Origin: a virus
Virus record (IMG/VR): IMGVR_UViG_3300042691_017324
Location: 1 to 36,314 of that record
Reading direction: 5' to 3' (one strand)
DNA length: 36,314 nucleotides
In this document: one piece after another, positions 13,527 through 30,950 of the stretch
How the letters are laid out: the number at the start of each line of letters is the position of its first letter
Numbering within the stretch: position 1 is the first letter of the stretch
Made by a program: the position numbers and the translations under genes
The notes under the pieces: generated by a model
Databases searched by the model: none
What the model was told of the DNA's origin: nothing
The model's input: the letters and a program-made list of their open reading frames with translations, nothing else

Positions 13527-13910
13527 ATGCTTAGAATAAAAACAAAATTAGATAAAAGCCAAATCGCTGGAATTGGAGTTTTCACTGACGAAGATATTCA
13601 TGAAGGACAAATTATATGGAGTATGAATAATCTTTCTGTCTTTAGAATAACTTCCGAAGATTATAAATCTCTTTCCGAAGAAGAAAAAAATTTTATAGAA
13701 GAAAAAGATTACTATTGGATCGACAGCGATGGAAGCTATATGATTCCATTAGATGACAGCAGATTTATAAATCATTCTGAAAGTCCAAATGTTATAGATA
13801 AAAATGATTATTTAACTATTGCAGCTAGAAATATTAAAAAAGGCGAAGAGTTAACTATGAATTATAGGACATTAGTTAGTGAAGAATATTGGAAACCTTA
13901 TTTTAAATGA
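13527..13910 (+). CDS. SET-domain protein (putative lysine methyltransferase)
   Basis: A 127-residue protein with the SET hallmarks: GIGVFTDEDIHEGQIIW (15-31), RFINHSESPNV (79-89, the RFINHS-x-x-PN motif that binds S-adenosylmethionine) and the closing GEELTMNY (106-113). SET enzymes methylate protein lysines and are mostly eukaryotic, but stand-alone ones occur in bacteria and large viruses. No pre- or post-SET zinc cysteines are present. The possible target is a host or phage protein. It overlaps the dCMP deaminase start by 4 bases. Confidence 0.87.
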   Translation: MLRIKTKLDKSQIAGIGVFTDEDIHEGQIIWSMNNLSVFRITSEDYKSLSEEEKNFIEEKDYYWIDSDGSYMIPLDDSRFINHSESPNVIDKNDYLTIAARNIKKGEELTMNYRTLVSEEYWKPYFK

Positions 13911-19022: not shown

Positions 19023-20774
19023 ATGGCAATTAATATTTTCACTCACATACGACGCAATTTATATGATAATGTCTATAACTGCATAGTTAAAGACAAAGTA
19101 AATATAAATGAAAGAGATGAGGACACTGGAAATCCTCCTCTCATAGTTGCTGTATCGGAGAATAATAAAGAGATTGTTGAATTATTATTGAATCACGGCG
19201 CGGATGTTAATTGTAAAGATTGGACAAGTAAAAATACAGCACTTGATATAGCAGAGCAAAAAGGTTTTTTATCTATTGTCGATGTTCTTCAAAAGCGTGG
19301 TGCAAAATATGGCAGCGGAAGTAGCTTTCATTTGGCGGCTAAAAATGGCGACATAGTTTCAGTAGAAGAAATGCTGAATAAAGGCCATACTTTAAATGAA
19401 GTTGACGCTGCAAAAGGTTGGACCGCAATGCATTATGCAGTTCATTATGGACAAAAACATTTAGTTGAATATTTAATACTTAGAGGCGCTGATGTTAATT
19501 CTAAAGACTTCTTAGGTAAAAATAATCCAATAGATGTATTAGCTTTAGGCAATAGAGGAGAAATCGTAAGAATATTAACCAAATCTGGCGCAAAATCTTC
19601 TGGTGGTTCAAGCATTCATTTTTGTGCAGAAACTGGTGATTTTGAAGGTGTACAGAAATATTTTGACATTGATGGTCGTATAAACGGTAGAGACGAAAAG
19701 AATGGATGGATGCCTATCCATTATGCCGTTAACGCTAACGATATTGAGATGGTTGAATTCTTAATCTGTTTAGGAGCCAACGTTAATGGCGCGGATTTTA
19801 AAGGTGAAGTTGCGCCATTAGATTTAGCTTTTAAAACTGGTAATATTAAAATGCAAACACTGCTTCAATCAAAAGGGGCAGCTAGAAAGAAAAAAATAGA
19901 TAATGGAGGCGGCGGCAAAGACGTTACAATCCATATCAGTGAAGAATTTAAAAAACAAATGCAAGCTTATATTGATAAAAGAAATCAAGAAGAAGCTGTT
20001 TTAAAAAAGATACATGAAGAAGAAGTCTCAAAAGATCCAAAGAAAAAAGATAAAAAGACTATTAACTGGAAAGAATTTTTAAAAAGTAAAAATAAGCCTG
20101 TCGAAGAAAAGAAGGTCGAAGAAGTTAAGAAAATTGAAGCTCCAAAACCTCCTAAGAAAATAATAAATCAAGTTGCGGTGATTGATGCTGAAGTTAAATC
20201 TAGTCGTCTTGAATTGGATAAAATACAAGATGGCTATATTTTTTTCATGGACATAGTTGGATATAGTAAAAAAACTACTGACGAGCAAAGAAAATGTTTT
20301 AAAGATCTAGGCGAAATAGTTAAATCAACTATACAATTTAAAACAGCTAATGCTCTTGAAAAATTAATCGTTCTTCCAACAGGTGACGGAATGATTCTTG
20401 GATTCTTCACTTACCTTGAAGACGCTATCAATTGTGGCATCACTGTTGCAAAAGTAGTTAAAAATAGACCAGATTTAGAAATGAGAATGGGCATTCATTG
20501 CGGCGACGTTTGCCCACTAGAAGATATAAATGGTAATTTAAATATTAGCGGCGATGGAATTAATTACGCTCAAAGAGTAATGGATGCTGGAGAAACTAAT
20601 CATTTATTAGTTAGCTCTGACGTTATGGCTAAATATGACAGACCAAATTATGTATTAGTTGAAGATCTTGGCGATGTAATAGTCAAGCACGGAGTTATTA
20701 TGCGATTGTATAGTTTGTATTCATCTGATTTTGGAAATAAAAATTTTCCGAATTCAAGAGTAAAAAAAGTGTAA
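19023..20774 (+). CDS. Ankyrin-repeat / class III nucleotidyl cyclase fusion
   Basis: A 583-residue protein in three parts. Residues 12-288 hold about seven ankyrin repeats (for example NPPLIVAVSENNKEIVELLL, WTAMHYAVHYGQKHLVEYLI). Residues 290-395 are a charged Lys/Glu linker. Residues 403-568 are a class III adenylate/guanylate cyclase domain: metal-binding D410 (FFMDIVGYSK) and D455 (LPTGDGMILGF), GIHCGD at 490-495, and the transition-state N514-x3-R518 (GDGINYAQRV). At the purine-selecting position four residues before D455 is Leu rather than the Lys typical of adenylyl cyclases, so the nucleotide made cannot be predicted. The catalytic set looks intact. No kinase, receptor or cyclic-nucleotide-binding partner is adjacent. 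Confidence 0.88.
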   Translation: MAINIFTHIRRNLYDNVYNCIVKDKVNINERDEDTGNPPLIVAVSENNKEIVELLLNHGADVNCKDWTSKNTALDIAEQKGFLSIVDVLQKRGAKYGSGSSFHLAAKNGDIVSVEEMLNKGHTLNEVDAAKGWTAMHYAVHYGQKHLVEYLILRGADVNSKDFLGKNNPIDVLALGNRGEIVRILTKSGAKSSGGSSIHFCAETGDFEGVQKYFDIDGRINGRDEKNGWMPIHYAVNANDIEMVEFLICLGANVNGADFKGEVAPLDLAFKTGNIKMQTLLQSKGAARKKKIDNGGGGKDVTIHISEEFKKQMQAYIDKRNQEEAVLKKIHEEEVSKDPKKKDKKTINWKEFLKSKNKPVEEKKVEEVKKIEAPKPPKKIINQVAVIDAEVKSSRLELDKIQDGYIFFMDIVGYSKKTTDEQRKCFKDLGEIVKSTIQFKTANALEKLIVLPTGDGMILGFFTYLEDAINCGITVAKVVKNRPDLEMRMGIHCGDVCPLEDINGNLNISGDGINYAQRVMDAGETNHLLVSSDVMAKYDRPNYVLVEDLGDVIVKHGVIMRLYSLYSSDFGNKNFPNSRVKKV

Positions 20775-20790: not shown

Positions 20791-21408
20791 ATGACAAACG
20801 TCGTTACAGAAATTTCAAATACGCTTAATTCTATAGGGAATTTTTTCACTATGGCAAACGCGACAATTGCAGCATTAATTATTTTTACCGGATACTTAAT
20901 AAGTTTCAGCAAGAAAATTAAACCATATATTTCAGTAAAAGATGATATTGCTTCATTAAAAGTAGACCTCGCTAAAATATCAAGTGAATTTAAAACAAAT
21001 GGCGGCAAAAGCTTAAAAGATCAAATAAACGATTTACAAACATCTACAAAAACCATTCTTTATAGACAAAGATGGATACTTGATAACAGAGAAGAGCCGA
21101 TATTTGAAACAGATGAACATGGAAATTTTACATGGGTAAACGATGCATTTGCAAGATTAACAGATAGACCGTTCAGAGATTTACAAAATAATAACTGGAT
21201 TAATTGTTTAAAAGAAGACACAAGGGAAGAAATCACTGTTAGTTGGAATGTAGCGATGGAAAATAAAAGAACTTTCGAGCATATATTATTTGTAGTTGAT
21301 AGTAAAAATAGAGTTTTTTCTACAAAATGCATTGCTTCTCGTCAAGAAGATGGAAAATATATAGGAAGTTTTACGAACGTAGAGAAAATCGTTGAAAAAA
21401 AATCTTGA
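20791..21408 (+). CDS. Membrane-anchored PAS-domain sensor
   Basis: A 205-residue protein: membrane helix about 22-40, a coiled-coil-like linker 50-92, and a PAS domain from about 98 to the end (EEPIFETDEHGNFTWVNDAF, TDRPFRDLQNNNWINCLKED, ending GKYIGSFTNVEKI). There is no kinase, cyclase or HTH output, so it must act through a partner. It starts 16 bases after the cyclase stop. Topology with PAS inside the cell is likely, since the loop after the helix is lysine-rich. Ligand unknown. Confidence 0.83.
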   Translation: MTNVVTEISNTLNSIGNFFTMANATIAALIIFTGYLISFSKKIKPYISVKDDIASLKVDLAKISSEFKTNGGKSLKDQINDLQTSTKTILYRQRWILDNREEPIFETDEHGNFTWVNDAFARLTDRPFRDLQNNNWINCLKEDTREEITVSWNVAMENKRTFEHILFVVDSKNRVFSTKCIASRQEDGKYIGSFTNVEKIVEKKS

Positions 21409-21440: not shown

Positions 21441-22145
21441 ATGATTAAGTATATTAATATTATTATCGCAACCCTTATGGCTTCAGTCGCAGTTTTCGCT
21501 GCGGATACTGAATCACCTGTTAACGCCAGCATTAACGCTGGTTATAACAACCATTATATTGTGAATGGTTTGGCAAAAACTGGCGGACAAGGTTTCGCTG
21601 GTTTCAATATTGGATCGACATATTTTGGTGTCGATGGTTATGTCGGCGGCGTTATTCTTCCAGACGCTAATAACATTGATGAATCCCACTGGAATGTTGG
21701 TGTAGGCAAGGCTTTGAAGGTTACCGAGAAGTTCTCGCTTCGCGGAGATTTGCAAGTTCTTCGTCATCAAAGTTCAATCGTAGGAGGCCGCAATTCAATC
21801 GAAATAGCTCCAAAGATTGCTTTGGTAAATCCATATCTAACTCCATATATTCGCGGTTCTCATGATTTCAATCTAAAGCAATCAGGATATATTGTTGGCG
21901 TTGAACGTCCTACCGACGTATTTGGTTGGGTTACTGTCACCCCATCAGTTGAGTATGGCAAGTTCACTGATTATGATGTTGTGGCTGCTAAGATTGGCGT
22001 GTCACGCACCTTCTTCAATCATCTAACTCCTTATGCTGAAGTTGGCTGGTACGACAACAACTTCTCAGCTTCAAAGTACAAGTTCGCTTCTCAAGAGTTT
22101 AGCGGCGATATCGTCGCTACTGCTGGAGTTCGTTGGAACTTCTAA
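21441..22145 (+). CDS. Secreted outer-membrane beta-barrel-type protein
   Basis: A 234-residue protein. A Sec signal ends AVFA (residue 20) before ADTES. The mature protein is built of alternating amphipathic strands rich in Gly, Tyr and aromatic residues (YFGVDGYVGGVILP, LTPYIRGSHDFNLKQSGYIVGV) and ends GVRWNF, the terminal aromatic expected for outer-membrane insertion. Its own promoter lies just upstream and a terminator just after. Phage-encoded outer-membrane proteins can change the host surface, for example to block superinfection. Base composition is higher in GC than the neighbouring signalling genes by eye. Confidence 0.82.
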   Translation: MIKYINIIIATLMASVAVFAADTESPVNASINAGYNNHYIVNGLAKTGGQGFAGFNIGSTYFGVDGYVGGVILPDANNIDESHWNVGVGKALKVTEKFSLRGDLQVLRHQSSIVGGRNSIEIAPKIALVNPYLTPYIRGSHDFNLKQSGYIVGVERPTDVFGWVTVTPSVEYGKFTDYDVVAAKIGVSRTFFNHLTPYAEVGWYDNNFSASKYKFASQEFSGDIVATAGVRWNF

Positions 22146-29307: not shown

Positions 29308-29584
29308 TATACAAAAAGAAATAGTTAAACTCTCTGAACAGTGGTACGAACTTATTAGTAGCAATCATCATAAAGATAAAGATTGCCATTGGTACATAGA
29401 AACGCGCTGGTCTTATGGCGAGCAACCTGAGTTTCGAGTGTTGCATCATGGCTATATTACTGATGACATAGAAATTGCCTGTGACTCTTATGATACGGCA
29501 CTAATGGAATTGCGAACTATTATTAAACGAGCTATTGAAAGAGAAAAAGAATTAGAAAAACTACCAAATTCTAATGTCTGGTAA
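29297..29584 (+). CDS. Hypothetical phage protein
   Basis: A 95-residue protein with a helical start and C-terminus and a beta middle (HWYIETRWSYGEQPEFRVLHH). No family recognised. Ends 11 bases into the pseudopilin gene. Confidence 0.6.
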   Translation: MTADIQKEIVKLSEQWYELISSNHHKDKDCHWYIETRWSYGEQPEFRVLHHGYITDDIEIACDSYDTALMELRTIIKRAIEREKELEKLPNSNVW

Positions 29585-29990
29585 ATCTAAAGGGTTTACT
29601 TTAATAGAAATAGTGTTGGCGACAGTGATATTATTATCATTGATCGCCGCGCTTGTTATTAACTTTGATTCTTTAAGAGGAGATCAATACAAAGAAGCGA
29701 AAGAGAATCTCAAAACATTTCTAATAAATAAACGTCATCAAGCCGCATATCATCAAAAAGAGCTTGAGCTATCTTTCTCTGAAGATTATACGATTAATTC
29801 AATTGAAAATCCTGACGAGCTTGCGGCGATAACTAACGATTTAAAAATAATAGAAACTTCCGCGACAAAAATCGTTTTTTTTCTTGACGGCACAATTGAA
29901 GAAAGCTATATTATCACCAGTTCTAATGATGGAAAAGTAACTAATACTTTTCGTATAAACGTCATTGGAAAAATAGACTACGATAAATAA
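29574..29990 (+). CDS. Type IV pilin/pseudopilin-like protein
   Basis: A 138-residue protein with a textbook prepilin leader: short basic MSGKSKG (1-7), then FTLIEIVLATVILLSLIAAL, with E12 at the fifth mature position and a 20-residue hydrophobic helix. Cleavage after G7 and N-methylation of F8 would need a host prepilin peptidase. The rest is a small alpha/beta domain as in GspH/PilE-type minor pseudopilins. In a phage this could jam or alter pili that serve as receptors. No other pilus gene is present. Confidence 0.82.
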   Translation: MSGKSKGFTLIEIVLATVILLSLIAALVINFDSLRGDQYKEAKENLKTFLINKRHQAAYHQKELELSFSEDYTINSIENPDELAAITNDLKIIETSATKIVFFLDGTIEESYIITSSNDGKVTNTFRINVIGKIDYDK

Positions 29991-30581: not shown

Positions 30582-30587
30582 ATGAGC

Positions 30588-30950
30588 ATGAATCGCAAAG
30601 GTTTTTTTAAGACTCTATTCGGAGGCTTTGTTGCTGCCTCTGCCGCGCCATCTCTAGTTAAAGCAGCAGAGACTCCTCAACCGCCAAAAGATTTAGCACT
30701 CGGTAGAGAAGCTTTAAGAATTGACGAACATGGCAACGTTGGATTAGGAACTAATATGCCTACAACTAAACTCCATGTTGAAGGTATTATTTTTCATATT
30801 AATGATCGAATGTTAGAAATGGCAGGAGATGAGAATGGTAATTTTAAAATAAAATGGTTAAATCCGAAAGAAAACGAAACCGCTAACACTATCGTAATCC
30901 ATAAACCAAAGGATGATCCGTGGAAGATGAATTTGAAGCGGATCAGCTAA
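30588..30950 (+). CDS. Exported protein with tail-fibre-like repeat
   Basis: A 120-residue protein; two extra residues arise if the ATG at 30582 is used. Its N-terminus NRKGFFKTLFGGFVAASAAPSLVKAAE is Tat-like: Arg-Lys-Gly-Phe-Phe-Lys, a hydrophobic Ala-rich core, AxA-type end (read in parts). LRIDEHGNVGLGTNMPTTKLHVEG is the repeat seen in phage tail-fibre and bacterial surface proteins (GNVGIGT-x-P-TKLHV). An export signal on a fibre-type domain is unexpected for a virion protein; it may be surface-displayed or periplasmic. Confidence 0.68.
   Translation: MNRKGFFKTLFGGFVAASAAPSLVKAAETPQPPKDLALGREALRIDEHGNVGLGTNMPTTKLHVEGIIFHINDRMLEMAGDENGNFKIKWLNPKENETANTIVIHKPKDDPWKMNLKRIS

Follow-up and report, generated by a model that had tools for sequence, protein, structure and literature searches.

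A single minor pilin-like gene with a conserved neighbour in tailed phages suggests an effect on host pili or secretion during infection

Among the genes of the viral DNA analysed here (IMG/VR record IMGVR_UViG_3300042691_017324; all 36,314 nucleotides are referred to as the window), one encodes a protein that begins like a type IV prepilin, which raises the question of what a phage might do with a pilin subunit. An earlier note on the same DNA had suggested that the phage feeds a dominant-negative pilin into the host pilus and so blocks other phages or alters attachment.

The gene (family F0, Table 1) starts with ATG and stops at 29988-29990. Its start overlaps the end of the upstream ORF by 11 nt and the downstream gene begins 3 nt past its stop, and it is therefore part of a same-strand gene array. 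The encoded leader, residues 1-7 (MSGKSKG), is followed by FTLIEIVLATVILLSLIAALVIN..., in which F8-T-L-I-E12 opens a segment that is hydrophobic without a break to about residue 30. All features of a class III prepilin signal are present, namely a short basic leader, a Gly/Ala-Phe cleavage motif, Glu at +5 and a hydrophobic helix, and both the N_methyl family of Pfam (PF07963; 23.0 bits against a gathering score of 21.2) and TIGR02532 of NCBIfam (19.2 against a cut-off of 16.3) match the protein. By this signal the product is a type IV prepilin-like protein with predicted cleavage; if cut, the mature form would have 131 amino acids, an acidic pI of 4.8 and no cysteine. A single AlphaFold model, of low confidence (pLDDT 46), consists of a long helix followed by strands.

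Table 1. Positions in the window of the prepilin-like gene, its predicted parts and the linked neighbour.
Feature	Position	Strand	Basis
F0, predicted GspH/FimT-class prepilin-like phage protein, 138 aa	29574..29990	+	ORF; PF07963 and TIGR02532; homologues; dN/dS; GspH profile alignment
Class III leader MSGKSKG	29574..29594	+	sequence; conserved K-[GA]-FTLIE; predicted prepilin-peptidase cut after Gly7
Predicted mature start FTLIE and hydrophobic helix, Glu +5	29595..29663	+	FTLIE invariance; helix in low-confidence model
GspH/FimT-like C-terminal region	29682..29987	+	leaderless profile alignment to GspH; tree
F2, 122 aa, export-type N-terminal signal (NRKGFFKTLFGG...VKA), tail-fibre-like motif GNVGLGTNMPTTKLHV	30582..30950	+	linkage; alignment; weak tail-fibre PHROG match

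Searches of viral contigs, which the earlier note had proposed as a check, found homologues on 24 further contigs at 37-90% identity: clade A, with 86-90% identity to the window, clade B, with 57-62%, and a distant lineage, L025, with 37%. FTLIE and the K preceding it are invariant in the aligned copies, down to 37% overall identity, and this invariance, together with the two family matches above their cut-offs, bears out the complete prepilin signature that the note had read in the window (Gly before FTLIE, Glu at position 5, a full hydrophobic helix). Gly at -1 holds for the window but not as a family trait, since 11 of the 17 distinct intact proteins carry Ala and only six carry Gly, a residue characteristic of the window's subclade alone. 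Cysteine is absent from 15 of the 17 distinct proteins. Within clades, dN/dS is about 0.04-0.14 (Nei-Gojobori; dS between clades is near or at saturation), and the gene is a real phage gene under strong purifying selection. In one copy (L017, 1121-1588) a stop splits the gene, either as a pseudogene or through an assembly error. The relatives carry rIIA, DNA polymerase, an ATP-dependent protease, a DnaB-like helicase and virion structural proteins, core genes that identify them as tailed phages; the T4 Gp23 capsid family gave nothing above cut-off in the phage fragments.

Prepilin genes occur on many viral contigs, some probably being cellular, and the gene studied here might on that ground be a passenger from a host, or its motif a product of chance, with no function. 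Yet the selection signal (dN/dS of about 0.1 within clades) contradicts both, and the 24 related contigs, the phage core genes and the conserved linkage described below speak against them as well, so that we give this explanation hardly any credence. Other searches reached little beyond the family: a search for further relatives of L025 returned only L025, the window pilin had no tblastn match in the phage database, and a clade B relative had there just a weak, probably chance match in the tail region of Proteus phage Saba. A genome scan yielded only a SAR11 pilin (L026) that matches via the leader, and matches in the PDB sequence search were essentially N-terminal, to pilins such as PilA, MshA and geopilin.

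More informative on the kind of pilin was a profile search across 299 Pseudomonadota genomes, which gave four matches; two of these extend over almost the full length, and both belong to GspH (PF12019). A domain-only search of the same genomes gave no match at E<=0.001. Sets of GspH/FimT and other minor pilins were drawn from 60 genomes for comparison. Stripped of leader and helix, the family profile could be aligned colinearly with the GspH set along 103 columns (score 25.9-27.6, E 4e-4 to 8e-4), against a best score of 16.5 and a longest alignment of 35 columns in 150 column-shuffle controls. With GspI-, GspJ- and PilE-like sets it aligned over just 17-26 columns (E 0.04-0.7); these sets hold only 4-8 sequences each, sorted roughly by motif, and the shuffles are therefore the better control. 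In a tree the phage proteins nest within the GspH group, with 0.97 support at the large node and weaker support within. On this sequence evidence, the protein is a diverged homologue of GspH/FimT-class minor pilins, beyond the leader alone. Because a direct match to PF12019 is missing even at E<=10 and the structural model is of low confidence with regard to the GspH fold, a helix plus two beta-sheets, we call it a diverged relative of the class rather than a PF12019 member.

With the GspH/FimT minor pilins (PF12019: FimU, FimT, GspH/XcpU) the phage protein shares the class III leader, Glu+5 and the hydrophobic helix, and its C-terminal part is colinear with GspH. It differs from them in being phage-borne, single-copy and acidic, mostly without cysteine, and in lacking a GRxR motif. 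Orthology to FimU or GspH was rejected, as there is no minor-pilin operon and each locus or record has just a single prepilin gene.

The missing PF12019 match and the Ala at -1 in most copies would also suit a plain membrane-anchored periplasmic protein, in which leader and helix serve only to tether a phage domain to the inner membrane of the host, with no part in a filament. However, a plain anchor has no need of a buried Glu, and FTLIE with Glu+5 stays invariant while the remainder diverges to 37%, which argues for the pilin reading; the C-terminal region is GspH-like as well. We consider a plain anchor rather improbable.

The top full-length match in NCBIfam, and the best to any named family, is the competence minor pilin ComGD (NF040982), which all 15 F0 members searched match (window E 2e-8). 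The window's match of 34.7 bits is nevertheless below the cut-off of 70, falls to E 0.02 once the leader is removed, and is accompanied by no com operon that we could see. Together with the fact that FimT, a GspH/FimT protein, is often encoded by an orphan gene (PMC8897410), this match might indicate a FimT-like DNA-uptake pilin, or a blocker of one, acting during infection. FimT identity was rejected, as the C-terminal GRxR DNA-binding motif (PMC8897410) occurs in none of the 17 distinct proteins, and the acidity of the mature protein also counts against a role in competence, which we judge very unlikely. The protein may still block DNA uptake by competition.

If the protein is a pilin, assembly would depend on the host. 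Across 13 phage records (the window and 12 relatives), no T2SSE/PilB secretion or assembly ATPase was found above cut-off, and neither a prepilin peptidase (Peptidase_A24) nor a T2SSF/PilC/GspF platform protein was found; all of these are fragments, and a complete phage genome might still encode such proteins. Within that scope, the statement in the earlier note that no pilus machinery is present holds. Each of the 12 relatives scanned has a single N_methyl gene, and so has the window by motif scan. Weak T2SSE matches in five relatives sit in ORFs of about 800 amino acids, and that of G001 is an ATP-dependent protease by PHROGs and therefore no pilus motor.

The host is probably diderm, as suggested by a window gene (21441-22145, +) for a signal-bearing, beta-barrel-like product that ends in Phe, has a weak OMP_b-brl match below cut-off and is possibly a phage-encoded outer membrane protein. 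Elsewhere the window encodes a membrane-anchored PAS-domain protein (20791-21408, +), a SET-domain protein (13527-13910, +), a protein with a signal, a CYSCH motif of the haem-c type and a weak match to Cytochrome P460, unusual for a phage (15392-16750, +), and an ankyrin-repeat protein with a C-terminal match to class III adenylate/guanylate cyclases (19023-20774, +), to which ORFs in relatives of both clades are similar (L148, L010, L163). Two clade A contigs (L149, 291-1439, -; L157, 11168-12316, -) encode a protein whose GAGQGGGK stretch resembles tubulin/FtsZ and which is weakly similar to gene 138 of Bacillus phage G.

A new element is a linked gene, F2, which the first reading had not connected to the prepilin gene. 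In every one of the 23 covered loci, in clades A and B and in both gene orders, at most one gene separates it from the prepilin gene (L014 stops short of the F2 position and is outside the 23), and in neighbourhood clustering no other family stays this close in both clades. In clade A it is downstream, adjacent or next but one, in 12 of 12 loci; in clade B it mostly lies upstream of the prepilin gene, from which a GIY-YIG-like gene usually separates it, except in L010 and L015/G009, where it is directly downstream. As clade members are close relatives, the independent evidence for linkage amounts to a handful of arrangements and not to 23. The record of the most distant lineage (L025/G010), a fragment of 23.7 kb, lacks F2.

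The N-terminus of F2 resembles a Tat or Sec export signal, read by eye and with RK in place of RR, and F2 is probably an exported protein. Its GNVGLGTxxPTxKLHV motif is known from tail fibres, one of them on a related contig, and in the alignment of the two clades the signal and GLGTxxPTxKL are what is conserved. F2 has a weak tail-fibre match in PHROGs, no convincing family in Pfam or NCBIfam and no match in the phage database. From the linkage we infer that the two genes are functionally connected. A simple dominant-negative pilin would not need a conserved neighbour; the linkage thus favours a function of two proteins in the envelope and makes it more attractive than a lone poison.

Core minor pilins initiate assembly of both the pilus and the pseudopilus, and their versions from type IV pili (T4P) and type II secretion systems (T2SS) are interchangeable (PMC7248040, PMC8897410); FimU and GspH are proposed tip adaptors (PMC8897410, PMC7248040). 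Because the GspH/FimT class is proposed for the initiation/tip complex, insertion of the phage protein into a host filament, or interference with one, is plausible, and so is the dominant-negative pilin of the earlier note. Taken together, we tentatively favour, at somewhat less than even confidence, the hypothesis that the phage protein is a diverged GspH/FimT-class minor (pseudo)pilin of a tailed phage that acts via host machinery alongside F2. The presence of a lone minor pilin gene in these phages suggests that host pili or a secretion system are altered during infection. We infer processing, incorporation, an effect on pili and a role for F2 as follows. The protein would be made during infection and inserted into the inner membrane of the host, whose prepilin peptidase would cut it between Gly or Ala and Phe. 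Through its helix with Glu+5 the phage protein could then join the host minor-pilin initiation/tip complex of a type IV pilus or of a type II secretion pseudopilus, where it would compete with or replace the host FimU or GspH, changing assembly or tip function. Acting together with the probably exported F2, it would most likely leave fewer or altered pili on the surface, affecting the adsorption of later phages. Against this explanation count the missing PF12019 match, the low-confidence model and the Ala at -1 in most relatives, which may slow cleavage.

Alternatively, the two proteins might form a delivery pair that retargets the host machine rather than blocking it. The Tat/Sec-type signal of F2 would take it across the inner membrane, the pilin-like protein would adapt the T2SS or pilus tip for export or display of F2, and the tail-fibre-like motif of F2 would then bind the cell surface and mask receptors. 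Such a pair would account for a linkage that persists in either gene order while most other neighbours differ, and for what F2 keeps between clades; moreover, GspH possibly binds substrates of the T2SS, a system that exports proteins already folded in the periplasm (PMC8897410, PMC7248040). On the other hand, the L025/G010 fragment is without F2, the signal has RK and was read by eye, and independent arrangements are few, and we think delivery unlikely, if the most serious of the alternatives. Marginally less probable still is a two-gene module in which the phage pseudopilin, seated in a host T4P tip or T2SS pseudopilus, presents or exports F2 and alters the exterior of the infected cell; if it were true, the lone prepilin genes of unrelated phages would represent comparable examples of phage-supplied filament subunits.

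Returning to the favoured minor (pseudo)pilin, phage interference with pili has precedent in inhibitors that bind the motor or platform, namely Tip of D3112 and Aqs1 of DMS3, which bind the PilB ATPase, and PfsE of Pf4, which binds PilC (PMC8764522, PMC11436027). Like these, the protein studied here is a phage product expected to act on the host pilus; unlike them, it is a pilin homologue, whereas the T4P inhibitors from phages that these papers describe target motor or platform proteins or expression, and none of them, Tip, Aqs1 and PfsE included, is described there as a pilin (PMC8764522, PMC11436027). A phage-made minor pilin, if true, would therefore be a separate route, acting at the filament initiation/tip complex, and the conserved F2 neighbour turns it into a concrete, testable two-protein hypothesis.

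A degenerate-motif scan returned at least 120 viral stretches, many with prepilin-leader ORFs, some cellular-looking and several short lone genes; among the stretches listed, none of these ORFs matches the F0 family outside the N-terminal helix. Lone short genes of this kind stand on unrelated phage contigs (L200, 1414-1665; L041, 4633-4914; L091, 116-313), and we found no paper on them in the open-access literature searched. An isolated Synechococcus phage, BUCT-ZZ01, has one too (UTS52068.1, annotated as hypothetical). This protein and those of PHROGs 10597, 11596, 13280 and 24680 are, like the F0 protein, phage products with a prepilin leader and unannotated function; that of BUCT-ZZ01, of about 83 amino acids, has a C-terminal part unrelated to F0, and the match of the four PHROGs to the window protein is confined to the N-terminal part. 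That lone genes with a prepilin leader turn up repeatedly among other phages suggests that a class of host-surface genes has been overlooked.
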